64,000 nucleotides of DNA from a bacterium. Lineage in GTDB: Bacteria > Joyebacterota > Joyebacteria > Joyebacterales > Joyebacteraceae. The translations under genes were made by a program, and so were the position numbers. Of the stretch, positions 45,404-63,471 are shown piece after piece; position 1 is the stretch's first letter; each line of letters starts with the position of its first letter. The notes under the pieces were generated by a model. That model made no database searches, was not told where the DNA came from, and saw nothing but the letters and a program-made list of their open reading frames with translations. The stretch covers positions 1 through 64,000 of the forward strand of contig JALGZK010000017.1 in the NCBI GenBank assembly GCA_025774935.1, read 5' to 3'.

Positions 45404-46288
45404 TCACGCGTCGGAGAGGTCCTCGAACGCGTACCTGCCCCTCTCGTCCTTCGTGATGCGGCCGACGTTCCCGTCGACGTCGTGGTCGAGGATGACGATC
45501 CAGTCGCCGGCGACCGCCTGTGCGAGGAGCTTCTCCTTCTGCTCGATGACCTCGAGCGGGAAGGTGTCGACGCCCGCGACGTACGGAACGCGTACGTGGT
45601 GCCTCCCCGGAATGAGGTCGGCCGGGTAGACCGCCGTTCCGTCGGGCGTCTCTATCAGCACCATCGTGTGCCCGGCCGTGTGGCCGCCGGTCCGCACCAT
45701 CGTGACACCGGGGGCGACCTCGTGTCGGTCGCCGACGAGATCGAGCTGCCCCGCCTCCTCGATGGGAACGAAGTCGTCCGTGCGGTACGCGGCTCTGCTC
45801 CGGGCGTCCGGCTCGAGCGCGTCCGCCCACTCCCGCTCGTTCACGTGGTAGCACGCGTTCGGGAACGCGGGCTCGACGCCCCCGGTCCCGTCCCGAGTCG
45901 CTCCGGCGGCGTGGTCCGCGTGGAGGTGCGTGAGGACGACCGTGTCGATGTCCTCGGGCGCGAATCCCATCCGCCGGAGAGCCGTCTCCACGTTTCTGTC
46001 GGGGTCGAACGCGAAAATCCTGAGGTCCTTCTTGGTGTGCCTCGCCCCGAACCCGACGTCGACCAGGATCTTCCTGCCGTCGGTCTCGATGAGGAGCGGC
46101 GAGAGCGAGAGCCTGATGCGGTTCTGGTCGTCGGCCGGGACGAGCGCCTCCCAGATGATCTTGGGGACGGCTCCGAACATCGCGCCGCCGTCGTAGAGGC
46201 ACTCCCCCGCGTCGAGGCTCGTGAGCTTCACTCCCCCGAGTGTCACCGTGAGGTCCGTCATGCTCACACCCGTCGCTCCCCCGCTCAT
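45404..46288 (-). CDS. MBL-fold metallo-hydrolase
   Basis: 294 aa. The metallo-beta-lactamase signature is [10 protein letters not shown] with further ligands in [18 protein letters not shown] and [30 protein letters not shown] near the N-terminus is typical of the lactonase/glyoxalase-like branch. Position between an acyl-CoA dehydrogenase (4-nt overlap, ATGA) and pccB suggests hydrolysis of a thioester or lactone by-product, but the substrate cannot be inferred. A start at the Met 9 codons downstream (46261) is also possible. Confidence 0.82.
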
Positions 46289-47436
46289 CCCCTGAGCTCC
46301 CAGCCGGCCACCACGAGCTTCTGGATCTCGGAGGTCCCCTCGATGATCTCGGTCACGCGCGCGTCGCGGAAGTAGCGCTCGACGGGGTGGAGATCCGCGA
46401 CGACGCCCGAGCCGCCGTGAACCTGCACGGCCTTCGACGCTACGAACGAGGCGGTCTCAGACGCGAAGAGCTTCGCCTGCGCTGCGATCTCGCCGTACGG
46501 GGCTCCTTCGTCCATGGTCGCCGCCGCCTGGTATGTGAGCGCGCGGGCGGCTTCGAGCCGCGTGGCCATCTCCGCGATCATGAGCTGGACCGCCTGGAAC
46601 TTCGCGATGGGGCGCCCGCCCGTCACGCGGGAGAGCGCGTAGGCCTTCGACGCCTCGAGCGCGGCCTGACCGATACCGACGGCCATGGCTGCGGCTCCGA
46701 TCCTGCCGCCGTCGAGGACCCCGAGCGCCATCCTCATGCCCTTCCCGCGCTTGCCGATCACGTGCGCCGCGGGGATGCGCATGCCGTCGAAGACGAGCTT
46801 CCCCACCGGCGCGGCCTTCAGACCGATCTTGATTCCTGCGCTCTCGGGCGCGAACCCATCCGCGTGCTCCGCCTCGACGAGGAGCGCGCTCATCTCGTCG
46901 CGCTTCGTGACCTTCCCGTCCTTCTCGACCGCGGTCTCGCCCGTGATCGCGAAGAGGACGATGACGTCGGCGATGGGGCCGTTCGTGATGTACATCTTCG
47001 TGCCGGTGGCGACGAAGTGGTCGCCTTCCTCAGGCGCGCGCGTGGGCGTCGTCGGGTCGAGCTCGGTGAGCGCGAACGCGCCGAGCTTCTTCTTCGCGAG
47101 CTCCGGAAGGACGTGCGCCTTTATCTCGTCGGACGCGTGCTCCGCGAGGAGCGCGACGCAGAGTGAGCTGTGGATGGACATCACGAGCGCCGTGCTCGCG
47201 TCGCAGCGCGCGAGCTCCTCGACAGCGGTCACGTACTCGAGCGCGCTCGCCCCTCGCCCGCCGAACTCCGTCGGCGCGAGGAGCCCCATCATCCCGGCTT
47301 CGAACATCGCGTCGAGCGCCGCCCGGTCGTACCTCCCGACCTTGTCCATGCCCGCCGCGCGCGGAGCGATCTCCCGCTCTGCGAACTCCCGCGCCCACGC
47401 GCGGATCTCGCGCTGCTTCTCGCTCAGATCGAACAT
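46285..47436 (-). CDS. Acyl-CoA dehydrogenase
   Basis: 383 aa. Family motifs: GAFALTELDPTTPTRAPEEGDHF (replacing the usual TEPxAGSD), GTKMYITNGPIADV and FRDARVTEIIEGTSEIQKLV with the standard catalytic Glu in EGTSE. It is therefore of the butyryl/short-chain class, unlike the protein at 29902. Its ORF lies beside the isobutyryl-CoA mutase small subunit gene. Specificity (isobutyryl-, 2-methylbutyryl- or butyryl-CoA) is not decidable from sequence alone. Confidence 0.88.
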   Translation of the reverse strand: MFDLSEKQREIRAWAREFAEREIAPRAAGMDKVGRYDRAALDAMFEAGMMGLLAPTEFGGRGASALEYVTAVEELARCDASTALVMSIHSSLCVALLAEHASDEIKAHVLPELAKKKLGAFALTELDPTTPTRAPEEGDHFVATGTKMYITNGPIADVIVLFAITGETAVEKDGKVTKRDEMSALLVEAEHADGFAPESAGIKIGLKAAPVGKLVFDGMRIPAAHVIGKRGKGMRMALGVLDGGRIGAAAMAVGIGQAALEASKAYALSRVTGGRPIAKFQAVQLMIAEMATRLEAARALTYQAAATMDEGAPYGEIAAQAKLFASETASFVASKAVQVHGGSGVVADLHPVERYFRDARVTEIIEGTSEIQKLVVAGWELRG

Positions 47437-47476
47437 CGTGTCCTCGTCCGGCGCGGTCCGGGCGGCCCGTCCGATG

Positions 47477-47884
47477 CTACGCGCCGCGCTTCTGCGCGAC
47501 CGCTTCCTTGATGTACGTGACGATGTCGCGCGTGTCGGTGCCCGGGCCGAAGAGCCGGTCGACGCCCATGCCGACGAGCTTCTCCATGTCCTCGTCGGGG
47601 ATGATCCCCCCGCCCGTCACGATCACGTCGTCGGCGCCCTTCTCCTTCAGGAGCTCGAGCACCCGCGGGAACATCGTCATGTGCGCGCCCGAGAGGATGC
47701 TCATCGCGACGACGTCCACGTCCTCCTGGACTGCCGCGTTGACGATCATCTCGGGGGTCTGGTGGAGGCCGGTGTAGATGACCTCCAGCCCGCCGTCCCG
47801 GAGAGCGCTCGCCACGACCTTCGCGCCGCGGTCGTGGCCGTCGAGCCCGGGCTTGGCGACCAGTACTCGGATTCTCTGTGGCAT
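47477..47884 (-). CDS. Acyl-CoA mutase small subunit, B12-binding
   Basis: 135 aa from ATG at 47884. The whole protein is one cobalamin-binding Rossmann domain: [27 protein letters not shown] with the DxHxxG lower-ligand His, AMSILSGAH and [13 protein letters not shown]. It is the separate small subunit of isobutyryl-CoA/methylmalonyl-CoA mutases. The nearest large subunit gene (49362) is of isobutyryl type and is separated from it by a sulfatase gene. It may also serve the methylmalonyl-type large subunit at 39997. Confidence 0.92.
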
Positions 47885-47915
47885 CGTTGGTGCTTCCTCC
47901 GCTCGTCTCTCCCGC

Positions 47916-49349
47916 CTAGTTCGGCGGCTCGTAGGGATCGGGAGTACCGGGCCGGATGGGTGGTTCCTTCTGGAGCGACATAACGTGGTCCGTAAGGAGT
48001 TGCCCCGCCGGCCAGCGGATCCAGCCCGCCCTGATCCACTGCGGATCGAGCGGGTTCTCTTCCTTCGGGTCGGTGTGGAGATCGTAGACGAGAGGCACCG
48101 GATACTCTTTGAGGGGCTCGCCCCACGCACGGTCGAGCTCCTTGAAGACCATTTTCCAGTTCCGCCACTTCACGCCGAAGATTTCGCTCCCGACGTAGAC
48201 GATGACGCCCTCGCGGTTCGACTTCTCGTGACCACCCGTGAAGAAGTCGAGCTGGTCGATGCTGTCGATGACGCGGTCGTCGGGCACGTCGCCTCCGACC
48301 GCACTGGCAAACGTCGCGAAGAGGTCCACCTCGTGGACGATCTCGTTACTGACGAGCCCCTCGGGAACGTTCCCGGGCCACCGCATGAGGAACGGCACCC
48401 GAAGCGAGCCCTCGTAGCCTGTGAAGTAGGTGCTCCGCCACGGCCCGCTGAACCCGTGCCACGGCACCTGCGCGTCGGGCCCGTTGTCGGCGGTGAAGAT
48501 GAAGATCGTCTCGTCCCGGATGCCGAGCCGGTCGACCTCGTCGAGGAGCATGCCGACGTAGACGTCGAGCTGTGCAAGAACATCGGCGAAGTCGCCGTTC
48601 CCCGTCTTCCCCGCGAAGTCCGGGTGCGGCGTGAACGGCATGTGCGTCTGCGTGTAGGGCAGGTAGAGGAAGAACGGTCTCTCGGCTTCGACCTGGCGCC
48701 GCATGAAGTCGATCGACAGCTCGGTCAGCTCGCCGTCGATGAGGGCGCGCTCCTCGAGGTCGTATACGCGGAGGTTCGCGGGCTCCTCGCCCCTCACGCC
48801 TTCCATGATGTGCTCGGGATGCGCGAACGGATGTGAGTCGGGCCTGAAGCGGCTGTCGTTGGGCCAGAACGCCTCGTCCGAGGAGTTCGGGATCCCGTAC
48901 CACTCGTCGAACCCCTGGTCCGTGGGGTATCTCCCCTCCGTGTGACCGAGGTGCCACTTGCCGAACATGCCGGTCGCGTAGCCCGCGTCCGAGAGCATCT
49001 CGGCCATCGTGTACTCCCACTGCGTGAGGCCGTAGATCGGCGACTCGATCGGGATTGACGCGTTCCCCGTGCGGATGGCGTAGCGCCCCGTGAGGATCGC
49101 GGCCCTGCTTGGCGTGCACTGGGCTTCCACGTTGAAGTTCGTGAGCCGGATGCCCTCCGACGCGAGCTTGTCGAGCCGGGGCGTCGGCGCCCCGCGGATG
49201 ATCCCGCCGCCATAGCAGCCGAGCTCCCCATACCCGAAGTTGTCCATGAAGATGAGGACGATGTTCGGCTTGGACGCGGCCTGCGCGGCCGCGGGCTTGA
49301 GCGCGAACGTCGCGGCTAGAAGCCCGAAGACGGCCATGAGGAACTTCAT
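47916..49349 (-). CDS. Exported sulfatase (arylsulfatase family)
   Basis: 477 aa with signal peptide [24 protein letters not shown]. Type I sulfatase: [21 protein letters not shown] (metal Asp), the formylglycine motif [27 protein letters not shown] and TADNGP. The CxPSR Cys must be converted to formylglycine by a separate enzyme not seen here. It would act in the periplasm or outside the cell on sulfate esters. It lies 31 and 12 nt from the two mutase subunit genes, an odd place for an exported enzyme. Confidence 0.92.
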
Positions 49350-49361
49350 CGTCTCCCCCTT

Positions 49362-51035
49362 TCACCCGTTGGGGTGAGGCAGGACCTCCCGGAGGACCCC
49401 GATCATCTCCCCGATCGTGGCGTACACCCGGGAGCACTGAACGAAGTGTGGCATCAGGTTGTCGGTGCCCTCGGCCGCGGCGCGGAGTCCCGCGAGGGCT
49501 TTCGTGACCGCTGCGTCGTCGCGCTCCGTCCTCACCTGTGCGAGCACCTCCCGCTGCCGCTCCGCAACGTCCGCGCCGATCTTCAGGAGCTCGATCTTGA
49601 TCTCCTCGCCCTCGTCGACGTGTTCGTTCACGCCGACGATTACCTGGCGGTTCTCCTCGATCGCTCGCTGGTACCGGAACGCGGCCTTCGCGATGTCGCG
49701 CTGGAAGAACCCCTTCTCGATCGCCGGGATGACGCCGCCGAGCTTCTCGATCTTGTCGAAGTAGTCGCGGCAGCCTTCCTCCATCCTGTTCGTGAGCGCC
49801 TCGACGTAGTACGACCCGCCGAGGGGGTCGATCACGTTCGGGACGCCGGACTCGTGCGCGATGACCTGCTGGGTCCGGAGGGCTACGTGCACGGCCTCTT
49901 CGGAAGGGAGCGCGAGCGACTCGTCCATCGAGTTCGTGTGGAGGCTCTGCGTTCCGCCCATCACGGCGGCCAGCGCCTCGAGCGCGGTCCGGACGACGTT
50001 GTTGAACGGCTGCTGCGCTGTAAGGCTGCAGCCCGCCGTCTGCGTGTGGAACCGCATGAGCCACGACCGGGGGTCCTTCGCCCCGTACTTCTCCTTCATG
50101 TCGGTCGCCCAGATCCGTCTCGCGGCGCGGAACTTCGCGACCTCCTCGAAGAAATCCATGTGCGAGTTGAAGAAGAACGAGAGTCTCGGCGCGAACTCGT
50201 CGACGTCCATCCCGGCCGCGATGCCGGCCTCGACGTAGGCGAACCCGTCGGCGAGCGTGAACGCGAGCTCCTGGAGCGCGGTCGAGCCCGCCTCGCGGAT
50301 GTGGTAGCCGCTGATCGATATCGTGTTCCACTGCGGGACGTCGGTCGCGCAGTACTGCATGATGTCGGTGATGATCCGCATCGAGGGCTCGGGCGGGAAG
50401 ATCCAGCTCTTCTGCGCGATGTACTCCTTGAGGAGGTCGTTCTGGATCGTGCCGCGCAGCTTCTTCGAGTCGACGCCCTGTTTCTCCCCCACGCAGATGT
50501 ACATGGCGAGGAGCACGGCCGCGGGAGCATTGATCGTCATCGACGTCGAGACCTTGTCGAGCGGAATCCCGTCGAAGAGGGTCTCCATGTCGCGGAGCGA
50601 ATCGATCGCGACGCCGCACACGCCCACCTCGCCCTCCGCCCGTTCGTGGTCGGAGTCGTAGCCCATGATCGTCGCGAGATCGAAGGCGACCGAGAGCCCG
50701 GTCTGCCCGTGCTCGAGCAGGAACTTGTACCGTCTGTTCGAGTCCTCGGGCGTTCCGAACCCCGAGAACTGCCGCATCGTCCAGAGGCGGCCGCGGTACA
50801 TGTTGTGGCGGACCCCCCGCGTGTACGGGTACTCGCCGGGGAACCCGAGGTCGTTCAGGTAGTCGAGATCCGCGACGTCGTCAGGTGTGTAGAGGAGGTC
50901 GACCTCCTCGCCGGAGACCGACGTGAACTCGGCGTCGCGCTGGCGGGACGACTCGGTGGCGTTCCCCTCCCAGGCCTTCCTCGCACCAGCGACATCGCCG
51001 GTTCCGCTCTTCTTCGTGGTGTCAACGTCCGCCAT
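49362..51035 (-). CDS. Isobutyryl-CoA mutase-type large subunit
   Basis: 557 aa from ATG at 51035, overlapping the upstream gene by 14 nt. It has the TIM-barrel mutase fold without B12 domain. The substrate residues are Phe90 in RQFSGF and Gln208 in IAQKSW, the same spacing (118) as Phe80/Gln198 of isobutyryl-CoA mutase and unlike Tyr/Arg of methylmalonyl-CoA mutase. 2-Hydroxyisobutyryl-CoA mutase would have Ile at the first place. It probably interconverts isobutyryl-CoA and butyryl-CoA, linking valine-type substrates to beta-oxidation and butyrate kinase. It follows the Hdr/Nuo genes directly. Confidence 0.88.
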
Positions 51036-52794
51036 CGCTGCCTCCCATGAGAGCGACGACCTGGGCCAGGAGCTGGTCAGACGAGAAGTGCGCCATCGAG
51101 ATCGTGCCCGAAGGACACGCCGCCGCGCACGTGCCGCAGCCCTTGCAGAGCGCCTCGTTGCAGCTCGACACGTCCTTCTCCTCGTCGAGCGTGAGAGCGC
51201 CGTAAGGGCAGACGGAGATGCAGATCCTGCAGCCTGCGCAGAGGTCCTCGTCGATCGAGCACGAGAGAGCCTCGACCGTGACCGTGCCCTTCGACATCGG
51301 GATGATCGCCGAGGACGCTGCGGCCTTCGCCTGGGCGACCGTGTCGGGGATGTCCTTCGGCCCCTGGCAGCAGCCGGCGAGGTAGATGCCCTCGCTCGCG
51401 GTGTCGACGGGACGGAGTTTCGGGTGGGCCTCCATGAGGAAGTTGTCCTGGGAGCAGCAGAGCTTGAGCGCGTTCGCGAGGCGTCCGGTGCCCTCGCGAG
51501 GGACGAGCCCCGCCGCCAGGACGACGAGGTCGGCCTCGACGTCAAGCGGCTCGCCCTCGAGCGTGTCCTCGCCCCGAACGACCAGTCGGTCCTTCCTCTT
51601 GTAGATCTCGGAGACGCTCCCGCGCCGGTAGATGACCCCCTCCTTCCGCACGCGGTCGTAGAACTCCTCGAACCCCTTCCCGAACGCCCGGATGTCCATG
51701 TAGAAGACCGTCACGTTCGCGTCGGGGATCTTCTCCTTCACGAGGTGCGCCTGCTTCGCAGTGAACATGCAGCAGACGCGCGAGCAGTACTCGTTCCCCA
51801 CGGTCTCGTCGCGCGAGCCCACGCACTGGATGAACACGACGTCCTTGGGCTTCTTCCCCGCGATCACGATCTCTCCTGTCGTCGGACCCGACGCCGAGCA
51901 GATTCGCTCCATCTCGAGCCCGGTGATCACGTTCTCGTACGAGGCGTACCCGAGCTCGGGCTTGAGGCAGGGGTCGAACTCGTCGAAGCCCGTCGCGACG
52001 ACGACCGTTCCGACCTGAAGCGGCTCCTCCCGCTCCTCCATCTCGTAGTCGATCGCGTCGGGACCACAGACCTTCTCGCACACGCCGCAGGTGCCCAGGG
52101 TCTTCTTCAGGCAGTGCTCGTCGTCGAGCACGGGGACCGCGGGGACCGCCTGCGGGAACGGGAGGTAGATCGACGACCTCGAGACGAGACGGGTGTCGAA
52201 CTCGGACGCGAGCGGCCGGGGCGTGAGGTCGGTGATGAGCCCGAGGTCGATCGCGTCGGTCGGGCAGATGAACTCGCACGCGCCGCAGGCGATGCAGACC
52301 TCCGACTTCTCGGCATACGGCGTGGCGATCGCGCGGTTGTCGCCTCGCCCGCGGAACGCGAGCGCTCCGGCTCCTACGACGTCGCGGCACATGCGGACGC
52401 AGAGCCCGCACATGATGCAGCGGTTGTCGCTCCGGTCCTCGGGCGTCCGGAACGGGGTCCCCTCGATCCCGAGCTTCGCCGCGAGGTCGCGGATCTCGAC
52501 CGCGTCCGGCGCTTCGGCGAGCATGAGCTCGACGACGAACCGCCGCGCCTTCCGGACCATCTCGGAGTCGGTCCGGACCTCGCCCTCCCACGCGGGGTAG
52601 GTGCACGCCGGGTGCAGCCTCGACTTCCCCTTCCAGATCGTCTCCACCACGCAGACCCGGCACGCGCCGTACGGGGTGAGCCCCCGGTAGGTGCAGAGCG
52701 TCGGGATCTCGATCCCGAGCTCGACGGCCGCCTCGAGCACGGTCCGGTTCTGGTCGGCCTCTATCTCGTGTCCGTCGATGATCAGGAGACCCAT
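51022..52794 (-). CDS. NuoG-like ferredoxin region fused to the C-terminal half of HdrA
   Basis: 590 aa from ATG at 52794. Residues 1-75 form a [2Fe-2S] domain with Cys34, 45, 48 and 64. Residues 125-180 hold two [4Fe-4S] motifs ([23 protein letters not shown]), as in NuoG/HydA N-termini. From about residue 200 the protein becomes HdrA, starting only at [14 protein letters not shown] and running through [44 protein letters not shown] and [16 protein letters not shown]. Two more [4Fe-4S] motifs follow. The FAD-binding N-terminal half of HdrA is missing here but present in the protein at 54765. Confidence 0.9.
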
Positions 52795-52861
52795 TCCCGG
52801 TGTTCCTCTCGTTCCTTTGGTGTCCATGGCTTCGCGGCGCGGGCGCCCGGCGCCCCCGCCG

Positions 52862-54715
52862 CTACTCGATCTTGATCGCGTCGAACTTGCAGGACTCGAA
52901 GCAGATGCCGCACTTGATGCACTCGTCCTGGTCGATCGCGTGGACCTTCTTGGGCTCGCCCTCGATGCACTCCTGCGGGCACTTCTTCGCGCATACGGTG
53001 CAGCCGGTGCAGGCGTCGGCGATCACGCTGTACGTGACGAGCGCCTTGCAGACCCCGGCCGGGCAGCGCTTCTCCTCGATGTGCGCGCGGTACTCGTCCT
53101 TGAAGTACCGGAGGGTCGTCAGGACCGGGTTCTGCGCGGTCGAGCCGAGCTGGCAGAGAGCGGTCTGTTCGAGACCCCACGAGAGGTACTCGAGCTCGTC
53201 GATGTGCCTGGCCTCCCCGTTTCCGTCGCAGATGTCTGAGAGTATCGCGTGCATCTGGCGAAGGCCCTCGCGGCACGGGGTGCACTTCCCGCACGACTCG
53301 TCCTTCAGAAACCCGACGAAGTACTTCGCGATGTCGACCATGCAGTTCCTGTCGTCCATCACGATCATGCCGCCCGAGCCCATCATCGATCCCGCCTCGG
53401 TGAGGCGGTCGAAGTCGACCTCGAGGTCGAGGAGGTCGGCCGGGATGCAGCCCCCGGAGGGCCCTCCCGTCTGGACCGCCTTGAACTCGCGCCCGCCGCG
53501 GATGCCGCCGCCGATGTCGTCGACGATCTCGCGGAGCGTGACGCCCATCGGGACCTCGACGAGACCGGTGTTCACGACTTTGCCCACGAGCGAGAAGATC
53601 TTCGTGCCCTTGCTCCCCTCGGTTCCGATCTCGGCGAACCAGTCTGCGCCCTTGTCGACGATCAGGGGCACGTTCGCCCAAGTCTCGACGTTGTTGAGGA
53701 CCGTCGGGCGCATGCGGAGCCCGCGCTCCACCGTGTGGATGTGCTTCGGCCTCGGCTCGCCTGGGCGTCCCTCGATCGACGCCATGAGCGCGGTCGATTC
53801 GCCGCAGACGAACGCGCCGCCCCCGCGCGCCACCGACACGTCGAACGCGAACCCTGTGCCGAGGATGTTCTCTCCGAGGAGCCCCGCCGCGCGCGCGTCG
53901 TCGAGGGCGCGGGTGAAGTTCGCGACCGCGAGCGGGTACTCCTCGCGGACGTAGATGTAGCCCTCGTTCACTCCGAGGGCGAACGCGCCGATCACCATCC
54001 CTTCGAGGACGCTGTGCGGGTTACCCTCGAGGATGCTCCTGTCCATGTACGCGCCGGGGTCGCCCTCGTCCGCGTTGCAGATGAGGTAGCGCGTGTCCCC
54101 GGGCGCCTTCAGGCACGACTCCCACTTCTTCCCGGTCGGGAAGCCCCCGCCGCCCCTCCCGCGGAGACCTGACGACTTCACGGCCGCCACGATCTCGTCG
54201 GGCATCATCGAGCCGAGCGCCTTCGCCAGCGGCGCGTATCCACCGATCGCGACGTAGTCCTCGATGCTCGTGGGATCGAGAACGCCGTTCCTGCCGAGGA
54301 TGAGCCGCGTCTGGTGCTTGTAGAACGGAACGTCCTCCTCGCGGACGATCTTCTCGCCGGACGCGGAGTCGACGTAGAGGAGCCGCTCGACGAGACCGTC
54401 GCCCACGACGGATGTTTCGACGACCTCAGGAACGTCCTCGGGCTTGACCTGCTGGTAGAGCGTGCCGCCGGGCTGGATGACGACGAGCGGTCCCCTCTCG
54501 CAGAACCCGTGGCACCCCGTCGTCAGCACGCGGACCTTCGACGCGAGGCCTCGCGATTCGACCTCCTCACGGAACGCCTCCGCGACCTTCCCGCCGCCGC
54601 ATGCGATGCAGCCGGTACCGCAGCAGACCGCGACCACGCGCGCGCCCGGATCCCGCTCCTTCAGGATCTCCTTCCGCGCCTTGTCGAGGTCTGCGATGTC
54701 CTTGACGTGCCTCAT
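52862..54715 (-). CDS. NuoF/HydB-like NADH-binding flavoprotein with extra Fe-S domains
   Basis: 617 aa from ATG at 54715 after GGAAGGA. Domain order: thioredoxin-like [2Fe-2S] domain (VCCGTGCIACGG, TTGCHGFCERGP), NuoF core with FMN/NADH loop GLRGRGGGGFPTGKKWE, ICNADEGDPGAYMDR and ARGGGAFVCGESTALMASIEG. The [4Fe-4S] site is DESCGKCTPCREG, and a C-terminal double ferredoxin follows (CTGCTVCAKKCP, CIKCGICFESCKFDAIKIE). This is the architecture of NADH subunits of bifurcating hydrogenases and NADH-dependent Hdr complexes. It lies between the two HdrA halves and is their likely electron entry or exit to NAD. Confidence 0.93.
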   Translation of the reverse strand: MRHVKDIADLDKARKEILKERDPGARVVAVCCGTGCIACGGGKVAEAFREEVESRGLASKVRVLTTGCHGFCERGPLVVIQPGGTLYQQVKPEDVPEVVETSVVGDGLVERLLYVDSASGEKIVREEDVPFYKHQTRLILGRNGVLDPTSIEDYVAIGGYAPLAKALGSMMPDEIVAAVKSSGLRGRGGGGFPTGKKWESCLKAPGDTRYLICNADEGDPGAYMDRSILEGNPHSVLEGMVIGAFALGVNEGYIYVREEYPLAVANFTRALDDARAAGLLGENILGTGFAFDVSVARGGGAFVCGESTALMASIEGRPGEPRPKHIHTVERGLRMRPTVLNNVETWANVPLIVDKGADWFAEIGTEGSKGTKIFSLVGKVVNTGLVEVPMGVTLREIVDDIGGGIRGGREFKAVQTGGPSGGCIPADLLDLEVDFDRLTEAGSMMGSGGMIVMDDRNCMVDIAKYFVGFLKDESCGKCTPCREGLRQMHAILSDICDGNGEARHIDELEYLSWGLEQTALCQLGSTAQNPVLTTLRYFKDEYRAHIEEKRCPAGVCKALVTYSVIADACTGCTVCAKKCPQECIEGEPKKVHAIDQDECIKCGICFESCKFDAIKIE

Positions 54716-54764
54716 GCTGTTCCTTCCGTGTGGTCTGTCGTCCGCCGCCCGGACGGAGCGCTGG

Positions 54765-56108
54765 TCACGCGCCCGCGTGGGCCGCGAAGACGTCGTCGGT
54801 CCCACCGGGTGCCACGGAGTGGTACTCGTTGTCCATCACGACCACCGGGCCGAGCGCGCAGCATCCCAGGCAGTTCACCGTGAGAAGAGTGTAGGCGAGG
54901 TCGTCGGTCGTCTCTCCCGGACCGATCCCGAGCCGGCGCTCTAACTCTTCGAGCACGCGCACCGCGCCGCGCGCGTGGCAGGCGGTGCCCATGCAGACCT
55001 TGATGATCTGTTTCCCGCGAGGCTCGAGGCTGAACGAGGTGTAGAACGACGCCACGTGGTAGATCGTCGCCGGCGGGATGCCGAGCCGGAACGACACGTA
55101 CTTGAGCGCGTCGACCGGCAGGTAGTTGTACTCGATGTTCACGTCCTGGAGGATCTGGATGAGCTCCTCCGCGTCTGCGCCGTGCTCCGCGATGATCTCG
55201 TCGAGCTTCCCCCGGTCTCCATCCGCGAGGTCGCGTGGGATGCCCGGCGGCTCGCGGAGCTGCGGCACGTTCCTAATCGGACACTCGGCGTAGCAGAGCC
55301 CGCAGTTCGTGCACTTGTCGATGTCGACGTAGCGCGCCTTCCTCGTGATGGTCGCCGTGAAGTTCCCGATGTACCCCTCGGTCTCCTTGATCTCGGAGTA
55401 GGTCATGAGGTCGATGTTCGGGTGCCTCCCTGCGTCGACCATCTTCGGGGTCAGGATGCAGGCCGAGCAGTCGAGCGTCGGGAACGTCTTGTCCAGCTGC
55501 GCCATGCGTCCGCCGATCGTCGCGTCCTTCTCGACGAGGTGGACGCGGTACCCCGCCTCGGCGATGTCGAGCGCGGACTGGATGCCCGCGATGCCGCCGC
55601 CCACGACCAGCGCCTCCGGGATGACGGGGACCTCCCGCTCGATGAGGGGCTTCAAGTGCGTCGCCCGCGCGGCCGCGGCCCGGACGAGGTCGATCGCCTT
55701 CTCGGTCGCCGCCTCCGGGTCCTCGGTGATCCACGAGCACTGCTCGCGGATGTTGGCCATATCGAAGAGGTACTGGTTCACGCCGGCGTCGGCGAGGGCC
55801 GCCCGGAAGGTCGGCTCGTGCATCCTCGGAGAGCACGCGGCGACAACGACCGCCGTGAGATCGTTCTTCTCGATGTCTTCCTTGATGAGCGTCTGGCCGG
55901 GGTCGGAGCACATGTACGGGTAGGTCTTCGAGACGACGACGTTCGGGAACGTCGACGCGACCTCCGCCACCCTCCTCACGTCAACCATGTAGGCGATGTT
56001 GATCCCGCAGTGGCAGACGTAGACGCCGACCCTGGGTTCCCTCTCGAGAGCGGGCCCGGCGTTTCTCGTCCCGCCGCCTTCCGCCGGCGAGCGGTCTTCC
56101 TTGGCCAT
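54765..56108 (-). CDS. N-terminal half of HdrA fused to NuoE
   Basis: 447 aa, ATG at 56108 after AAGGAG. Residues 27-165 are the HdrA N-terminal domain (YVCHCGINI, PYMCSDPGQ, VVAACSPRMHEPTFR, NIREQCSWI). The FAD Rossmann motif VVGGGIAGIQSALDIAEAG lies at 168-186, then LDCSACILTPKM and one [4Fe-4S] motif CTNCGLCYAECP (266-276). At the point where HdrA would continue, the chain turns into a NuoE domain (about 295-447) with the [2Fe-2S] ligands in CMGTACHARG and CLGCCALGP. The missing half of HdrA is on the protein at 51022, so the two should associate. Confidence 0.92.
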   Translation of the reverse strand: MAKEDRSPAEGGGTRNAGPALEREPRVGVYVCHCGINIAYMVDVRRVAEVASTFPNVVVSKTYPYMCSDPGQTLIKEDIEKNDLTAVVVAACSPRMHEPTFRAALADAGVNQYLFDMANIREQCSWITEDPEAATEKAIDLVRAAAARATHLKPLIEREVPVIPEALVVGGGIAGIQSALDIAEAGYRVHLVEKDATIGGRMAQLDKTFPTLDCSACILTPKMVDAGRHPNIDLMTYSEIKETEGYIGNFTATITRKARYVDIDKCTNCGLCYAECPIRNVPQLREPPGIPRDLADGDRGKLDEIIAEHGADAEELIQILQDVNIEYNYLPVDALKYVSFRLGIPPATIYHVASFYTSFSLEPRGKQIIKVCMGTACHARGAVRVLEELERRLGIGPGETTDDLAYTLLTVNCLGCCALGPVVVMDNEYHSVAPGGTDDVFAAHAGA

Positions 56109-56144
56109 TCGTGTCTCCTTCGAAGCGCGAAGGCCGCGCCCGTT

Positions 56145-57119
56145 CTAGGCGCGGAGCTCGGTGATCTTCTCGGTCAGGGCCGGAACGACCTTCATGAGGT
56201 CGCCCACGATGCCGTAGTGCGCCGCCTGGAAGATGGGGGCCTTCGGGTCCTTGTTGATCGCGACGATGGTCTCGGCGGACTTCATGCCGGCCACGTGCTG
56301 GAACTGCCCGGAGACGCCGATCGCGACGTAGAGTTTCGGCTTGACGGTCTTCCCGGACGAACCGACCTGACGGTCCTTCGGGAGCCACCCGGCGTCGACG
56401 ACTGGGCGCGAGCACGCGACGACCCCGCCCAGGAGCTCGGCGAGGCCGGTGATCAAGGGCATGTTCTCCTCTTCCTTGATCCCTCGGCCGATGGCGATGA
56501 CCACGTCCGACTTCGTGATGTCGACCTCGCCCGCGGCGGCCTCGACGTACTCGACGAACCGGCGGAACGCGGGCTCATCGGGGACCTCGGTGTCGAGGGC
56601 AACGACGCTCCCGCCGCGCGAGGCCTCCTCCGGTGCGAAGGCGGCGGGTCGAACCGTCACGAGGCTGATCGCGGCGCCGCCGAACCCCACCCGCTCGTTG
56701 ACCTTCCCGCCGTACGTCTGCCGGGTCCCCACGAGGTCGGACCCTTCGACCGCGAGGTCGATGACGTCTGACGCGAGCGGGGCGTCGAGCGCGACCGCGA
56801 GGCTGGGAGCCAGGTCGACGCCGAACGCGGTGTGGCCGATCATAACGACCGACGGCTCCCGCCCCCGGATGACGTCGGCCAGAACCGGCTGATAGACTGC
56901 CGAGTTGTAGTGCGCGAACCCATCGTGATCGCGGACGAGGACCTCGTCGGCCTGCTGCGCGAGCCTCTCCGCGAGATCGCCAACGCCCGATCCGAGAAGG
57001 ACCGCGGCGACCTTCGTCCCGGACGCGTCGGCCACTCCCCTCGCGTGCGCGAGCATCTCGAAGGTCACGTCCTTGAGTTCGCCGTTCAGGTGTTCAGCGA
57101 GGACAAGCACGTCGTTCAT
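56145..57119 (-). CDS. etfA: Electron transfer flavoprotein alpha subunit
   Basis: 324 aa. Two-domain EtfA: N-terminal [21 protein letters not shown], then the FAD domain with [57 protein letters not shown]. This C-terminal signature is diagnostic. It follows etfB with no gap (stop 57120, start 57119). It receives electrons from the acyl-CoA dehydrogenases of this run. Confidence 0.96.
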
Positions 57120-57908
57120 CTACGCGAATCCCTTCTCTTTGAGAACGTCGGCAAGCTTCGTGGACGCCTCGGCGGGCGTCCCGTCGAGGATCTCCGCACC
57201 CTCGCCGGCCGGCGGGTAGTCGAGTCCAAGGAGCGTCGTCTTCGAGCCCGCCTTCCCGGCCTCGGCGGTGTCGAGACCGAGGTCGGACGCGGCCTTCGTG
57301 TCGATGTCGCGCTTGGCCGCCTTCGCGATCCCCATGATCGAGGCGTAGCGGGGCTCGTTGATGCCGGTCTGGATCGTCACGACGGCGGGGAGCTTGATCT
57401 CGAGCTTCTCCAGGAGCCCGCCCTCGAGCTCGCGTCCGACGGTCACGGCGCCGTCGCCGATCTCCATCTCGGTGACGTACGTGGCGTGCGGCACGCCGAG
57501 CATCTCGGCGAGCGTGACGCCGACCTGGGTCATCCCGTCGTCCGACGCCATGCACCCTGTGAGAACCAGGTCGTACTCCATCCCGCCGATGGCCTTGGCG
57601 AGCGCGTTCGCCGTCGCCCACGCGTCCCCGCCATCGAACGCCGGGTCAGCGAGGCGGACCGCCTCGGTCGCGCCCTTCGCCATGCACATCCGGAGGACCT
57701 CCTCGGAGGAGTCCGGACCGAGCGTGATCACGGTGACCTCGCCGTCCCTGTCCTCCTTGATGAGGAGCGCCTCCTCGAGCGCGTAGTTGTCGGACTCGTT
57801 GATCTGGAGAGGAAGCCCCTCCATCTCGATGCCGCTCCCGTCTGAGGCGATCCTGACGTCGGCCTCGGCGGTGTCCGGCACCTGTTTCACGCATACGACG
57901 ATGTTCAT
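57120..57908 (-). CDS. etfB: Electron transfer flavoprotein beta subunit
   Basis: 262 aa from ATG at 57908. EtfB motifs: MNIVVCVKQVPDTAEADVRI, NESDNYALEEALLIKE, VLTGCMASDDGMTQVGVTLAEMLG and the recognition-loop region LPAVVTIQTGINEPRYASIMGIAKAAKR. Its order with etfA and a CCG-type Fe-S protein resembles the Etf clusters of syntrophic fatty-acid oxidisers. Whether this Etf has a second FAD (the bifurcating type) cannot be decided by eye. Confidence 0.96.
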   Translation of the reverse strand: MNIVVCVKQVPDTAEADVRIASDGSGIEMEGLPLQINESDNYALEEALLIKEDRDGEVTVITLGPDSSEEVLRMCMAKGATEAVRLADPAFDGGDAWATANALAKAIGGMEYDLVLTGCMASDDGMTQVGVTLAEMLGVPHATYVTEMEIGDGAVTVGRELEGGLLEKLEIKLPAVVTIQTGINEPRYASIMGIAKAAKRDIDTKAASDLGLDTAEAGKAGSKTTLLGLDYPPAGEGAEILDGTPAEASTKLADVLKEKGFA

Positions 57909-57966
57909 GCGTTCGGTCTCCTCCTGTCGGGCCGGAGGGGCGAAGAGCCCTCCCGTCCCAGGGCTG

Positions 57967-59088
57967 CTAGAGCGCCATCGCGGCGAGCTCGGCGAGGTCG
58001 AGTATCTCGATCTTCCCCTCGCAGCCACTCGTCTTCACCGCGTCCTCGAGGGTCAGGAGGCAGAACGGACACGCGGTCACGAGTGTGTCCGCTCCGAGCT
58101 CGACGGCGTCCTTGACCCGCGTGTCGGCGAGACGCTCGCCCCTCTCGTCCTCCGCCTCGACCCACATCCTCCCGCCGCCGCCTTCGCAGCAGAGGGCGCG
58201 CTCGCGGGAACGGTCGAGGTCCTCGAACTCGACACCCGAGATGCGTTCGATCACGCTCCGGGGCTCGTCGAAGATCGCGTTGTGCTTCCCGAGGAAGCAG
58301 GGGTCGTGGTACGTCACCTTCCGCTCCACGCTTCCCTTGAACGCGAGCTTCCCTTCGTCGAGAAGCCCCGCGAGGTACTGCGAGTAGTGCACGACCTCGT
58401 CCGCGACGCCGCCGTACTCGTTCAGGAGCGTGTTCATGCAGTGGGGCGAGCTCGTCACGACCGCGTCGATCGAGTGGCTGGCGAACGCTTCTCGGTTCCC
58501 CTCGACGAGAAGCTCGAAGAGCCCCTCCTCTCCCATCCGCTTGACCTCGTTCCCGCAGCACGACTCGGCTGCGCCCAGGGTCGAGTAGCCGACGCCGGCC
58601 GCCTCGTAGAGACGGACGAGCGCCCGGGCGACGTCCTGGCACCGGGGATCGTAGGCCGGCGTGCACCCGACGTACCAGAGGAGCGGGACGGCGTCGCCGT
58701 CTCCCGCGACCGGAACGTCGAGTTCGTCTGCCCACTCGGTCCTCTTCTCCCTGCCCCGGCCCCACGGGTTCCCGTGCTTGAACGTGCTCTCGAGCGCGTC
58801 CCTGATCGTAGGCGAGACCTTCCCCCGCTCGATCGAGGAACCGCGAAGCCCAATCAGAAGTTCCATGGGCTTCACGCCCTTCGGGCAGCGCTCCGTGCAC
58901 GTCGCGCACGTGGTGCAGCTCCAGGCCTCCGGACGTTCGTGCGCGCCCTTCGGGGCCGGCCCGATGAGCCCGTCGTAGACGACCTTCCGCACATTCAGAT
59001 ACGTGCGGAGCGACACCGGGCAACCCGCCGTGCACCTCCCGCACTGGATGCAGCCGAGGAGCTCGTACTTGTCAGCAAGTGATGGCAT
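57967..59088 (-). CDS. HdrC-HdrB-like iron-sulfur oxidoreductase
   Basis: 373 aa, ATG at 59088. Residues 13-23 and the next motif (CIQCGRCTAGCP, CTTCATCTERCP) give two [4Fe-4S] clusters as in HdrC. Two CCG domains follow as in HdrB/HdrD: YVGCTPAYDPR with AAESCCGNEV, and YHDPCFLGKHN with ALCCEGGGG and TACPFC. Fused HdrD-type proteins take electrons from Etf in syntrophs or reduce disulfides. Between acyl-CoA dehydrogenase and etfBA genes it is probably the link from Etf to the split HdrA/Nuo module or to quinone. No transmembrane segment is present. Confidence 0.9.
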   Translation of the reverse strand: MPSLADKYELLGCIQCGRCTAGCPVSLRTYLNVRKVVYDGLIGPAPKGAHERPEAWSCTTCATCTERCPKGVKPMELLIGLRGSSIERGKVSPTIRDALESTFKHGNPWGRGREKRTEWADELDVPVAGDGDAVPLLWYVGCTPAYDPRCQDVARALVRLYEAAGVGYSTLGAAESCCGNEVKRMGEEGLFELLVEGNREAFASHSIDAVVTSSPHCMNTLLNEYGGVADEVVHYSQYLAGLLDEGKLAFKGSVERKVTYHDPCFLGKHNAIFDEPRSVIERISGVEFEDLDRSRERALCCEGGGGRMWVEAEDERGERLADTRVKDAVELGADTLVTACPFCLLTLEDAVKTSGCEGKIEILDLAELAAMAL

Positions 59089-59137
59089 GTGTCAGCACCG
59101 GTCCTGTGGTGGTTGCTGTTCGTCCCGCCCGGGCGAG

Positions 59138-60280
59138 CTACTTGAGCTCGTTCCGCGCGATGACGAGCTTCTGGATCTGGCTCGTCCCCTCGTAGATCTC
59201 GATGATCTTCGCGTCCCTGTACATCCTCTCGACGGCGTACTCCTTCGAGTAACCGTAGCCGCCGTGAATCTGGACGGCCTTCCTCGTCACGTCGACCACG
59301 ATCTCCGCGGCGAAGTACTTCGCCATCGCGGCCTCGCGCGTGAACCTCTTGGCGCCAGCGTCCTTCATCGAGGCGGACCGGTAGACGAGGAGCCTCGCGG
59401 CGTCGATCTTGGTCGCCATGTCGGCGATCATGTCCTGGATCATCTCGAACTCGGCGATGGGCTTCCCGAACTGCTGCCGCTCCTTCGCGTACTTCACCGA
59501 GGCGTCCAGGGCGCCCTGCGCGATGCCGACTCCCTGCGCGCCGATGTCGATCCTCGAGACGTCCAGCGTGGTCATGACGACCTTGAACCCCTGCCCCTCC
59601 TCACCCAGCAGGTTCTCCTTCGGGACCATGCAGTCGTCGAAGATGAGTTCGGTGTTGCCGGTGGCGCGGATGCCCATGAGGTTCTCGTGCTTCCCGATCG
59701 AGAACCCCGGGAAGTCCTTCTCGACGATGAAGGTGCTCATCCCCTTGTGCCGGGCGGAAGGGTCGGTGTACGCGAACACGATGAAGAGCCCCGCCGCCTC
59801 CGCATTCGTGATCCAGCACTTCGTCCCGTTCAGCCTGTAGTGGTCGCCCTCGAGGACCGCGGTCGTCTCCATCGACGCGGGGTCCGACCCGGCGTTCGGC
59901 TCGGTGATGCCGATGGCGCCGAGCGCCTTCCCGGACGCGAGCATCGGGAGGTACTTCTTCTTCTGCTCCTCGGTCCCGAACTGGAAGATCGGGAACGTGG
60001 CGAGCGAGTTATTCACCGCGGTGATCACGCCGGTCGAAGCGCAGACCCGCGAGATCTCCTCGACGATGATCGCGAGCGTGGTGAAGTCCATTCCCGCTCC
60101 GCCGTACTCCTCGGGAATCACGACGCCGAGGAGCCCCAGCTCCGCCATCTTCTTCATGGTCGCGTGAGGGAACTCGCGAGACTCGTCGATCTCCGCGGCG
60201 ATGGGCTCGATCTCGTTCATGGCGAACTCGCGCACCATGTCGCGGACCATCTTTTGGTCCTGGCTCAAGCTGAAGTCCAT
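59138..60280 (-). CDS. Acyl-CoA dehydrogenase, butyryl/short-chain type
   Basis: 380 aa, ATG at 60280. AIGITEPNAGSDPASMETTAV, LNGTKCWITNAEAAGLFIVFA, VQIHGGYGYSKEYAVERMYRDAKIIEIYEGTSQIQKLVI. The catalytic Glu in YEGTSQ is present. Very typical of butyryl-CoA dehydrogenases. As the gene nearest to hdrCB-etfBA it is the likely primary donor to this Etf, or an enoyl-CoA reductase when electrons flow the other way. Confidence 0.93.
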   Translation of the reverse strand: MDFSLSQDQKMVRDMVREFAMNEIEPIAAEIDESREFPHATMKKMAELGLLGVVIPEEYGGAGMDFTTLAIIVEEISRVCASTGVITAVNNSLATFPIFQFGTEEQKKKYLPMLASGKALGAIGITEPNAGSDPASMETTAVLEGDHYRLNGTKCWITNAEAAGLFIVFAYTDPSARHKGMSTFIVEKDFPGFSIGKHENLMGIRATGNTELIFDDCMVPKENLLGEEGQGFKVVMTTLDVSRIDIGAQGVGIAQGALDASVKYAKERQQFGKPIAEFEMIQDMIADMATKIDAARLLVYRSASMKDAGAKRFTREAAMAKYFAAEIVVDVTRKAVQIHGGYGYSKEYAVERMYRDAKIIEIYEGTSQIQKLVIARNELK

Positions 60281-60322
60281 TCCCTCGGGCTCCTTTCGTT
60301 TCCCGTGGAGGCGGACCGCGGT

Positions 60323-61294
60323 CTACTCGCCGCGCCCGCCCGAGCCGATCCTGTCGAGTACGTCCCTTGCGATCTCGTAGGGGGAACGGTGTCCCCTCGT
60401 AACGTCTCCCACCATTCCGTCGAGGCCGGCCTCGCCTCCCATCCGTTCGAGCAGCTGGCGTTCGAGAGCGTCGACCACGATCGCGCGGACCTGCGACTTG
60501 AAGTGCGCGCGGCGCCGCTCCTCGAAGAGCCCCGCCGACTTGAGGAACTCGCGGTGCGACTCGATGGCGGCCGCGAGCTCGGGGATGCCGTCGCCGGTCG
60601 TGGCCGTCGTCTGGACCACCGGGGGCGACCAGCCTGTGCCCTCGTCCTTGAGCGAGAGCATCGACTGAAGCTCCGCGACAGTCATCTCGGCGCCCTCGCG
60701 GTCCGCCTTGTTGACGACGAAGACCTCCCCGATCTCCATGAGCCCGGCCTTCATCGCCTGGATGCTGTCGCCCGACTCGGGCACGAGCACGATGACCGTC
60801 GTATCCGCGGCCTCCGCGATGTCGAGCTCCGACTGCCCGACCCCCACGGTTTCGAGGATGACGAAGTCGAGCCCGTAGGCGTCCATCGCGGCGGCGACGC
60901 TGGGGGCCGCTCGGGAGAGCCCCCCGAGCCCCCCTCGGGTCGCCATGCTCCTGATGAAGACACCCTCGCGGGTGCCGAGGCGCTGCATCCTGATGCGGTC
61001 GCCCAGGAGCGCCCCGCCGGTGAACGGGCTCGTCGGGTCGACGGCCACGATGCCGACGGAGCCCCCTGCGTCGAGATAGTGCCCTGTGAGCCCGTCGACG
61101 AGCGTGCTCTTGCCCGCCCCGGGCGGACCCGAGATCCCGATCCGGTAGGCGGAGCCGACGCTCGGGTAGACGGCATCGAGAAGCGCGTAGCCGCGTTCGT
61201 CCTCGTCCTCGATCCAGGAGATCGCTCTCGCGAGCGCGACGGTGTCTCCGCTCAACACCCGCTCGACGAGAACGTCGACGGCAACGTCCCTCAC
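60323..61294 (-). CDS. meaB: MeaB/ArgK-type mutase-protecting GTPase
   Basis: 323 aa from GTG at 61294 preceded by GAGGGGGA; a start at 61363 would overlap cobO. G3E GTPase motifs: P-loop GISGPPGAGKSTLVDGL, IVAVDPTSPFTGGALLGDRIRM (switch region), RGGLGGLSRAA, ETVGVGQSE and VVNKADREGAE. MeaB loads and protects adenosylcobalamin in methylmalonyl-/isobutyryl-CoA mutases. Both mutase types are encoded in the same run. Confidence 0.93.
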   Translation of the reverse strand: MRDVAVDVLVERVLSGDTVALARAISWIEDEDERGYALLDAVYPSVGSAYRIGISGPPGAGKSTLVDGLTGHYLDAGGSVGIVAVDPTSPFTGGALLGDRIRMQRLGTREGVFIRSMATRGGLGGLSRAAPSVAAAMDAYGLDFVILETVGVGQSELDIAEAADTTVIVLVPESGDSIQAMKAGLMEIGEVFVVNKADREGAEMTVAELQSMLSLKDEGTGWSPPVVQTTATTGDGIPELAAAIESHREFLKSAGLFEERRRAHFKSQVRAIVVDALERQLLERMGGEAGLDGMVGDVTRGHRSPYEIARDVLDRIGSGGRGE

Positions 61295-61331
61295 GTCGTC
61301 CCCCTCGGCCCGCCCTCTCGGCGGGCGCGGG

Positions 61332-61859
61332 TTAGAACTCGATCCCCTCGCGCGCCTCGACACCGGCGTCGTAGTGGTGCTTGATCTTCAGCACCTCACT
61401 CACGAGGTCGGCCACCATCACGATCTCCGGATGCGCCGACCGACCCGTGAGGACGAGCTCGACGTGCGGGGGGCGTTCCCCGATCAGCTCCAGCACCTGC
61501 TTCAGGCTGACGAGACCGAAGTCGAGGGCGACGTTGATCTCGTCGAGAACGACGAGGTCGTGCTCGCCGCCCGTGATGACCTCGCGCGCCCTCGCCAGGC
61601 CGGCCTGGGCGAGATCGACGTCGACCTGCGGCGGGTTCTGCTTGTCGACGAACTCGTCGCGGCCGGACTGCTCGATGACGAACCCCGACAGGGCGCGAGC
61701 CGAGTCGAGCTCCCCGTAGTTCGAGCTTCCCTTCATGAACTGGATCACGTAGACGCTGAGCCCGTGGCCGACGGCGCGGAGGGCCAGACCGAGCGCGGCG
61801 GTCGTCTTGCCCTTCCCGTCGCCGGTATAGACCTGCACGGTTCCGTGCCTCTCCGGCAC
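61332..61859 (-). CDS. cobO: Corrinoid adenosyltransferase (CobO/BtuR/CobA family)
   Basis: 175 aa from GTG at 61859 after GGAGG. P-loop YTGDGKGKTTAALGLALRAVGHG at the N-terminus, VIQFMKGSSNYGELDSA, HDLVVLDEINVALDFGLV and the C-terminal VELVLTGRSAHPEIVMVADLVSEVLKIKHHYDAGVEAREGIEF region (shown here only as motif anchors) are characteristic. It makes adenosylcobalamin, the mutase cofactor. It is the first gene of the long minus-strand run. Confidence 0.95.
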   Translation of the reverse strand: MPERHGTVQVYTGDGKGKTTAALGLALRAVGHGLSVYVIQFMKGSSNYGELDSARALSGFVIEQSGRDEFVDKQNPPQVDVDLAQAGLARAREVITGGEHDLVVLDEINVALDFGLVSLKQVLELIGERPPHVELVLTGRSAHPEIVMVADLVSEVLKIKHHYDAGVEAREGIEF

Positions 61860-63234: not shown

Positions 63235-63471
63235 GATTATAGAGGGATGGCGACTCTCTGATTCAGACGGGCCATCGGGCCCACGGTTCGAGGGACACAA
63301 TCCACGATCTCGACTGCCCTGCTCCTCTCAGGGGAGCGCAGCAATGGAAGGAGGGCAGCCCGGGATAAGAGCAAGTCGACGGCACCGCGCCGAGCGCGAT
63401 GCCGTCTGTTCACAGGTGGACCGGCTGCAGTCTCGCAGCCCCAAGTGCAGGTAGTACGAAGGAGGACGACG

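Follow-up and report, generated by a model that had tools for sequence, protein, structure and literature searches.

A nuoE-nuoF-nuoG cassette within hdrA and its putative role in linking acyl-CoA electrons to NAD(H)

What becomes of an HdrA that is divided over two genes, with each half joined to a subunit of another enzyme? This question is raised by the first 64,000 nucleotides of contig JALGZK010000017.1 (assembly GCA_025774935.1) from a bacterium of the family Joyebacteraceae, hereafter called the window, in which HdrA is distributed over three consecutive open reading frames on the minus strand (51,022-56,108): gene 1 (P0001, 447 aa; 54765..56108) encodes the HdrA N-terminal part with a NuoE/BfuC fusion, gene 2 (P0002, 617 aa; 52862..54715) separates the halves and encodes a NuoF/HydB protein (BfuB), and gene 3 (P0003, 601 aa; 51022..52827, true start likely M12, 52794) encodes a NuoG/BfuA N-terminal ferredoxin region followed by the HdrA C-terminal part. 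An original prediction, made from the sequence alone, had proposed this split, with the halves fused to NuoE- and NuoG-like domains and a NuoF with extra ferredoxins between them, and the reading frames together with their PDB and Pfam matches agree with it. Sequence, synteny and phylogeny show that the arrangement is a nuoE-nuoF-nuoG cassette nested in an in-situ hdrA, within its inserted ferredoxin domain. NADH thus seems to be wired directly to an enzyme handling the electrons of acyl-CoA breakdown, in this bacterium and in scattered unrelated ones.

One HdrA domain set on two chains

The HdrA half of gene 1 (residues 24-281; 55266..56039, minus strand) comprises the N-terminal Fe-S domain, the GxGxxG portion of the FAD domain and the first inserted-ferredoxin motif (C266, C269, C272, C276), with C217 as the equivalent of Cys197; a NuoE/HydC-like [2Fe-2S] domain follows (residues 303-431; 54816..55202, minus strand; C372, C377, C413, C417). 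In the PDB, P0001 matches HdrA from M. thermolithotrophicus over residues 2-261 (5odc_A, E 3e-101) and thereafter HydC/NuoE (E 6e-39). The NuoE fusion had been correctly anticipated, whilst the content ascribed to this half, an FAD fold and one [4Fe-4S] site, has to give way to the three elements listed, of which the FAD domain is present in its first part only. In gene 3, the NuoG/HoxU/BfuA-like region (52228..52785, minus strand) carries a [2Fe-2S] site (C45, C56, C59, C75) and two [4Fe-4S] sites (C137-C147, C178-C188) and, having zero cysteines between 75 and 137, no His-Cys3 cluster; residues 15-194 match the N-terminal ferredoxin domains of HoxU, HydA and NuoG. The HdrA half of gene 3 (residues 208-594; 51046..52206, minus strand) supplies the rest of the FAD domain, the second inserted-ferredoxin motif (C239, C247, C250, C254) and the C-terminal 2x[4Fe-4S] ferredoxin, and residues 185-593 match 5odc_A (E 2e-131), with continuous identity from about residue 208. 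Its NuoG-like partner was as predicted, whereas its HdrA homology begins about 10 residues earlier than had been supposed.

Gene 2, which starts at an ATG at 54715 behind a GGAAGGA Shine-Dalgarno sequence, shows an N-terminal [2Fe-2S] thioredoxin-like domain, an FMN/NADH domain, a CPAGVC motif and a C-terminal 2x[4Fe-4S] ferredoxin. Its top solved match is HydB of a bifurcating NiFe hydrogenase (7t2r_B, E 5e-230), the other best matches being related Bfu HydB proteins, and it contains the domains that characterise BfuB (PF01512, PF01257, PF10589 and Fer4) together with the expected cysteines. The [2Fe-2S] thioredoxin-like subunit encoded with BfuB, BfuC, is present as the fused domain of gene 1, and the [2Fe-2S] and ferredoxin domains of BfuA are found in the NuoG-like region of gene 3. 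These features identify the module as an NAD(H)-ferredoxin core of the Bfu/HydABC type and not as a part of respiratory complex I: an NADH-linked bifurcating or confurcating complex, as originally proposed, is still the best reading, but the Complex I-type label is to be replaced by that of a module for which bifurcation with NADH and ferredoxin has been proposed in its own right.

In order to see how the halves relate to one HdrA, they can be placed on the NCBIfam HdrA2 model, where P0001 covers positions 1-256 and P0003 positions 253-641: the halves abut to within about three residues, nothing substantial is lost or doubled, and the earlier claim that they join without overlap into one HdrA holds to that precision. 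Jointly they provide the full domain set (N-terminal Fe-S, FAD/TrxR, inserted ferredoxin and C-terminal ferredoxin). Comparison of eight fused trios places every junction between the first inserted-ferredoxin motif CxxCxxCxxxCP (CL in one of them) and the SEFD...PFPQAVP region, and the Fe-S cysteines of both halves, including C217, are invariant among five divergent trios, as are the FAD-motif residues. In a 2x[4Fe-4S] fold, the ligands of each cluster come from both motifs; both inserted-ferredoxin clusters would therefore be ligated across chains (C266-C276 of gene 1 and C239-C254 of gene 3). The two [4Fe-4S] motifs of this domain are thus divided between two polypeptides, as the FAD site probably is too, and from such sequence features we infer that the halves assemble into one HdrA. 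Single-chain AlphaFold models (pLDDT 76 and 70) are confident for most core domains, and Foldseek searches with these models confirmed the HdrA and the NuoE/NuoG-like folds of the single proteins. Relative to 5odc, the second ferredoxin motif is longer by an insertion of five residues. This was considered as a mark specific to the split and dropped, since most bacterial intact HdrAs carry the same insertion.

When compared to canonical HdrA of the MvhAGD-HdrABC complex (5odc, 8rvu), the two proteins jointly span the whole protein and keep the FAD motif, the counterpart of Cys197 and the Fe-S cysteines, be they N-terminal, in the inserted ferredoxin, in the FAD domain or C-terminal. In contrast to the single chain found there, two chains are present here, the cut ends are fused to Bfu subunits, and neither MvhD nor a hydrogenase is encoded in this operon. 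All HdrA classes of PMC12054007 form one continuous polypeptide, and both HdrA duplications and MvhD fusions are already known (PMC11237513).

The cassette within a resident hdrA

In five related genomes (L063, L065, L067, L068, L071), whose contigs span most of the operon, an intact hdrA of about 660 codons occupies the exact slot of the trio, in an operon of the order (cobO-meaB-acyl-CoA dehydrogenase-EtfD-like-)etfB-etfA-hdrA-methylmalonyl-CoA mutase. In four more relatives (L064, L066, L069, L070), whose contigs break off close by, hdrA adjoins etfA and/or the mutase gene. Relatives carry either the split or the intact HdrA at this locus, and no genome of the window's family was seen to hold both versions there; the genome of the window contains no intact orthologous HdrA, its other HdrAs being at most 57% identical. 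The expectation that no full-length HdrA would stand beside the trio therefore holds in the window's family and fails in a Spirochaetales metagenome-assembled genome (MAG; L092), where one is encoded directly upstream of the trio. In phylogenies, split HdrA nests among intact orthologues, in a clade supported at SH-aLRT 100 in a 77-row tree and 97/94 in a 46-row tree, and the N and C halves each support this placement when analysed separately. An intact gene in the same slot together with this nesting places the cassette within a resident hdrA, and the order N-half, NuoE, NuoF, NuoG, C-half is the outcome expected of a simple insertion. This origin, the recurrence of such events and the flavoprotein and acyl-CoA dehydrogenase partners described below go beyond the original prediction.

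The same trio is found in the corresponding operon of another genus of the family (G008, L061) at 82-89% identity, with dN/dS values between the two trios of 0.25, 0.14 and 0.23, indicating purifying selection. From the first acyl-CoA dehydrogenase gene (ACAD1) through the end of gene 3, the window is 81-90% identical to G008 and, where comparable, 67-75% identical to G001 of its own genus; for ACAD2, MBL and the large subunit of the mutase the relation is inverted, with G001 nearest (window 46285-61859 compared with L061 and L068). Given this mosaic identity, the segment from ACAD1 to gene 3 appears to have been replaced horizontally, the block having seemingly moved between genera once it had formed.

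The call for the same fusions in the same gene order elsewhere was answered by G008 and by at least seven further genomes; these counts, like all counts among named genomes here, are lower bounds. The related loci lie in KSB1 (L062, with which L094 is apparently identical), G153, G302, G386 (two copies), G388, the Spirochaetales MAG L092, the MAG L093 and Zixibacteria (L095), whilst a Glassbacteria contig (L096) ends within the fusion. Wherever the contig reaches far enough, the partner half is present and always in the same order (11 of 11 trios). With the HdrA-NuoE fusion in 5 of the 386 genomes sampled around the window, whose phylum is represented by 20 genomes of one family, the fusion is widespread yet rare. 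Variants exist: in L093 (9995-13119) the HdrA_N-NuoE and NuoG-HdrA_C fusions are adjacent with no nuoF between them, next to genes for MeaB and the mutase small subunit, and in L164, L076 and L221 NuoE is unfused or absent. The genome of the window itself holds a second split HdrA (C27:55207-61347; L055 7157-13408), in which an FAD domain-NuoE fusion is followed by NuoF and then by a NuoG-HdrA C-part with further HdrA (1129 aa): the same insertion, placed in the first unit of a double HdrA, of which an intact example lies in this genome at C12:37889-40912.

On the HdrA tree, 7-8 changes are needed to account for the splits, and a single origin followed by vertical descent is rejected (p-AU 4e-45, 10 splits); it is also rejected for the window, L061, L062 and L095 alone (p-AU 3e-26), whose cassettes do group. 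In the Bfu tree, the cassettes of the window, KSB1 and Zixibacteria form a group (support 97) with that of an Altiarchaeales contig and with an unsplit Hdr-NuoEFG locus from the window's phylum, whereas the HdrA halves of the window, KSB1 and Zixibacteria do not group; the remaining cassettes are placed at other positions, in part weakly supported, and the cassette tree needs 5-6 changes. The simplest reading of these trees would be that different cassettes entered different HdrAs repeatedly and at the same site each time, with reversion to an intact gene as the alternative. Three loci (L202, L203, L204; G001:C99, G008:C484, G019:C159) encode separate NuoE, NuoF and NuoG beside unsplit HdrA genes, with NuoF proteins 67-69% identical to that of the window, and represent a possible unsplit counterpart.

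That splits have arisen repeatedly at one position speaks for a modular site of insertion, common to this cassette and to the insertions of type III HdrA. In type III HdrA (HdrA9/10/11 of ANME-1 and Bathyarchaeota), a GltD/NfnB module has been inserted in the inserted ferredoxin domain on at least two separate occasions, which has been suggested to bring NAD(P)H and two flavin centres into HdrA (PMC9012536, PMC12054007). An NAD(P)H-handling module thus sits in the same domain in both cases; there it is a single in-frame GltD domain of about 500 residues in one protein, whereas here a three-gene cassette trans-splits HdrA. The titles, abstracts and passages that we searched, a scope outside which subscription papers fall (e.g. 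Appel et al. 2021, an HdrA(BC) review), contain no description of a multi-gene insertion trans-splitting HdrA. The earlier statement that the pattern is undescribed therefore stands for the trans-split and has to be qualified by the published GltD/NfnB insertion (PMC9012536, PMC12054007): new here is the multi-gene cassette, whilst NAD(P)H-module insertion in this domain was known already, as were HdrA and Bfu as separate Bam subunits.

Proposed electron path and competing readings

The trio is preceded on the minus strand by genes for EtfA (56145..57119) and EtfB (57120..57908), the two subunits of an electron-transferring flavoprotein (ETF), a soluble fused HdrC-HdrB/EtfD-like Fe-S protein (57967..59088) and ACAD1 (59138..60280), the probable electron donor or acceptor of ETF. 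The EtfD-like protein has 2x[4Fe-4S] and two CCG domains, the first short of one CxxC cysteine and the second complete; no membrane segment was detected in it (Kyte-Doolittle maximum 1.46 over 19 residues). Its best solved match (9ojn_A, E 2e-62) is a protein that we take to be mycobacterial EtfD. EtfD has been shown to link ETF to the respiratory chain and is proposed to accept electrons from ETF (PMC13083937). The order acyl-CoA dehydrogenase-EtfBA-trio recurs in a second lineage with a different HdrA (G153, G386, G388). Next downstream lies the methylmalonyl-CoA mutase large subunit gene (49362..51035, minus strand), whose start overlaps the stop of gene 3, and the operon also holds acyl-CoA dehydrogenases, an acyl-CoA carboxylase, MeaB and CobO; the presence of mutase, carboxylase, MeaB and CobO suggests branched or odd-chain acyl-CoA oxidation. 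A sulfatase-like gene (47916-49349) lies between the two mutase subunit genes, with matches in G001 and G002 and none in the loci of G003, G005, G008, G009 and G018.

With fair confidence we propose that the HdrA split by the nested Bfu cassette re-forms one HdrA and acts reversibly as an NAD(H)/ferredoxin:ETF (acyl-CoA) oxidoreductase whose two flavin centres are arranged in series; we infer its direction and bifurcation, as we do its assembly. Judged by residue conservation and by the structures of 5odc and of the M. wolfeii enzyme, the chains of genes 1 and 3 would rebuild HdrA with the FAD site and the two [4Fe-4S] motifs drawn from both. In the methanogen complex of known structure, free ferredoxin is reached from FAD over the inserted ferredoxin domain and HdrBC over the cluster of the TrxR domain (PMC9012536). 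The cassette would take over the inserted-ferredoxin port, which is the free-ferredoxin exit in methanogen HdrA, allowing electrons to be exchanged between the HdrA FAD and, at the BfuBC core, NAD(H) and ferredoxin; HdrA would then be the third-substrate module fed by the BfuA-like region of gene 3. On the other branch, gene order and homology suggest that electrons pass between HdrA and the acyl-CoA dehydrogenases by way of the EtfD/HdrCB-like protein and EtfAB, giving a predicted path of acyl-CoA dehydrogenase - EtfAB - EtfD/HdrCB-like protein - HdrA FAD - inserted ferredoxin - BfuA - BfuBC - NAD(H) and ferredoxin. The direction that we favour is confurcating acyl-CoA oxidation, in which ferredoxin reduced by 2-oxoacid:ferredoxin oxidoreductases would push electrons from acyl-CoA up to NAD+; six POR_N-family proteins of this oxidoreductase type are encoded in the genome of the window and could be the source of reduced ferredoxin.

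Several observations weigh against this proposal. Thermodynamics favour enoyl-CoA reduction over acyl-CoA oxidation; the trio of G020 and that of one G386 locus are accompanied by HdrB/HdrC-like genes and not by ETF, which can therefore not be the partner in every case; and the PDB matches of Etf are about equally similar to bifurcating and to trimethylamine-dehydrogenase ETFs, so that the ETF itself might bifurcate. In addition, AlphaFold confidence is low in the inserted-ferredoxin region and in several further stretches of both halves, which fits the absence of the partner chain and also a thin alignment.

The most serious competitor, unlikely though we consider it, is that the complex runs only in the bifurcating, enoyl-CoA-reducing direction, oxidising NADH and reducing enoyl-CoA and ferredoxin in the manner of Bcd-EtfAB in order to make reduced ferredoxin. 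This direction is exergonic (NADH about -280 mV, enoyl-CoA near -10 mV), and the top score of ACAD1 is with an acryloyl-CoA reductase model, albeit at 521.9 bits and thus under the cut-off of 640; the operon, however, reads as one for branched or odd-chain acyl-CoA oxidation, and several 2-oxoacid:ferredoxin oxidoreductase-type proteins are available as ferredoxin sources. A second alternative would be that bifurcation at the HdrA FAD has been lost and that the split HdrA is a mere wire from the Bfu core, as the true NADH/ferredoxin bifurcation site, to ETF via the EtfD-like protein. The Bfu family is indeed proposed to bifurcate alone at its FMN and Fe-S sites with a third substrate reached via BfuA (PMC9304861), and fusion at the inserted ferredoxin would supply exactly this route, yet the HdrA FAD-motif residues and all Fe-S ligands have stayed invariant in divergent trios and a whole HdrA, C-terminal ferredoxins included, is superfluous for simple electron transfer; we regard this as rather improbable. 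It is highly improbable that the two proteins form no joint HdrA and have become independent subunits, gene 1 for example being a NuoE with a decorative FAD domain: the cut does run through a cofactor domain and L093 has both halves without a NuoF gene between them, but the halves are complementary and non-overlapping, co-occur in one order throughout, and each retain ligands whose partners sit on the other chain, and the recurrence of the split at one position speaks for assembly having been preserved. An assembly artefact or pseudogene, which the draft state of the assembly (40 contigs) might suggest, can be dismissed with near certainty: independent genomes have the same arrangement, the frames are intact, gene 2 has a ribosome-binding site, and the identity and dN/dS (0.14-0.25) of the L061 trio, together with the related trios of at least seven other genomes, rule out chance, frameshift and assembly error.

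The proposed oxidoreductase can be set beside several known systems. It shares acyl-CoA dehydrogenase, ETF and an EtfD-homologous Fe-S protein with EtfAB-EtfD (EMO) and Bcd-EtfAB; unlike in EtfAB-EtfD, the EtfD-like protein is soluble and electrons are predicted to reach HdrA and NAD(H)/ferredoxin instead of menaquinone. FlxABCD-HdrABC is likewise an NADH-linked HdrA complex, for which Ramos et al. in 2015 reportedly described Flx as feeding NADH via FlxA and the MvhD-like FlxD. FlxABCD is not known to include NuoEFG homologues or a split HdrA, contrary to the earlier reference to NuoEFG-like subunits in it. FlxA, FlxB, FlxC or FlxD (MvhD-like) genes were not found in the operon, where the neighbours are ETF, EtfD-like, acyl-CoA dehydrogenase and mutase genes; the G302 locus carries Flx-like genes and a split trio together. 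In the Bam-Bfu class II benzoyl-CoA reductase (BamB-I), two bifurcating modules in series have been proposed, with HdrA and BfuABC subunits (BamG/H/I; PMC9304861). The unsplit Hdr and NuoEFG of L202 and L203 resemble this system within the window's phylum, whereas in the trio HdrA and Bfu are not separate proteins and the tungsten enzyme is missing, no AOR/BamB-like (tungstopterin) gene being present among the annotated operon neighbours. With Types 1-4 of the Bfu (HydABC) family (PMC9304861) the trio shares the BfuBC core cysteines and, as in Type 2, a BfuA cluster set that lacks an A3-type cluster; it differs in that the third-substrate module is an HdrA half fused to BfuA (Type 1-like) with the other half on BfuC, and the main text of PMC9304861 lists no class with HdrA halves on BfuA and BfuC.

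A wider picture, which we offer as tentative, is that of one enzyme in which two unlike bifurcation centres, the FMN of Bfu and the FAD of HdrA, stand in series, the Bfu module being stapled into the electron-exit domain of HdrA via a shared FAD pocket and [4Fe-4S] clusters, linking acyl-CoA/ETF to NAD(H) and ferredoxin and having arisen repeatedly as different Bfu cassettes entered different hdrA genes at one and the same site. Should the halves indeed come together, cofactor sites formed between subunits would convert the port for free ferredoxin into one wired permanently to NAD(H). The arrangement would also account for the way in which some uncultured anaerobes may couple acyl-CoA oxidation to NAD+ with no quinone step in the membrane. 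The ETF-linked operon with intact HdrA and that with HdrA split by the NADH module, in close relatives, form a natural before/after pair, by which the electrons carried at each HdrA port, and the ability of Bfu and HdrA to bifurcate in series, can be put to a direct test.

Further loci and neighbouring genes

Clusters of the order HdrCB-like - EtfB - EtfA - intact HdrA also occur in Bacillota and other MAGs (L097-L099, L102, L107, L109-L111, L118, L120 and others) and seem to represent an ETF-linked Hdr module that is little described. Within the window, two similar open reading frames of about 175 aa with signal-peptide-like starts (62430-62954 and 63445-63993; MKKLLIAIAILAIAAPAMA and MKVLMVAITILALTFAAGA) are apparently tandem paralogues. 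An in-frame TGA, probably encoding selenocysteine, is found in the LDCSxC region (Cys197 equivalent) of several HdrAs (L057 at G000:C12, L082, L119, L139, L163 and L167).

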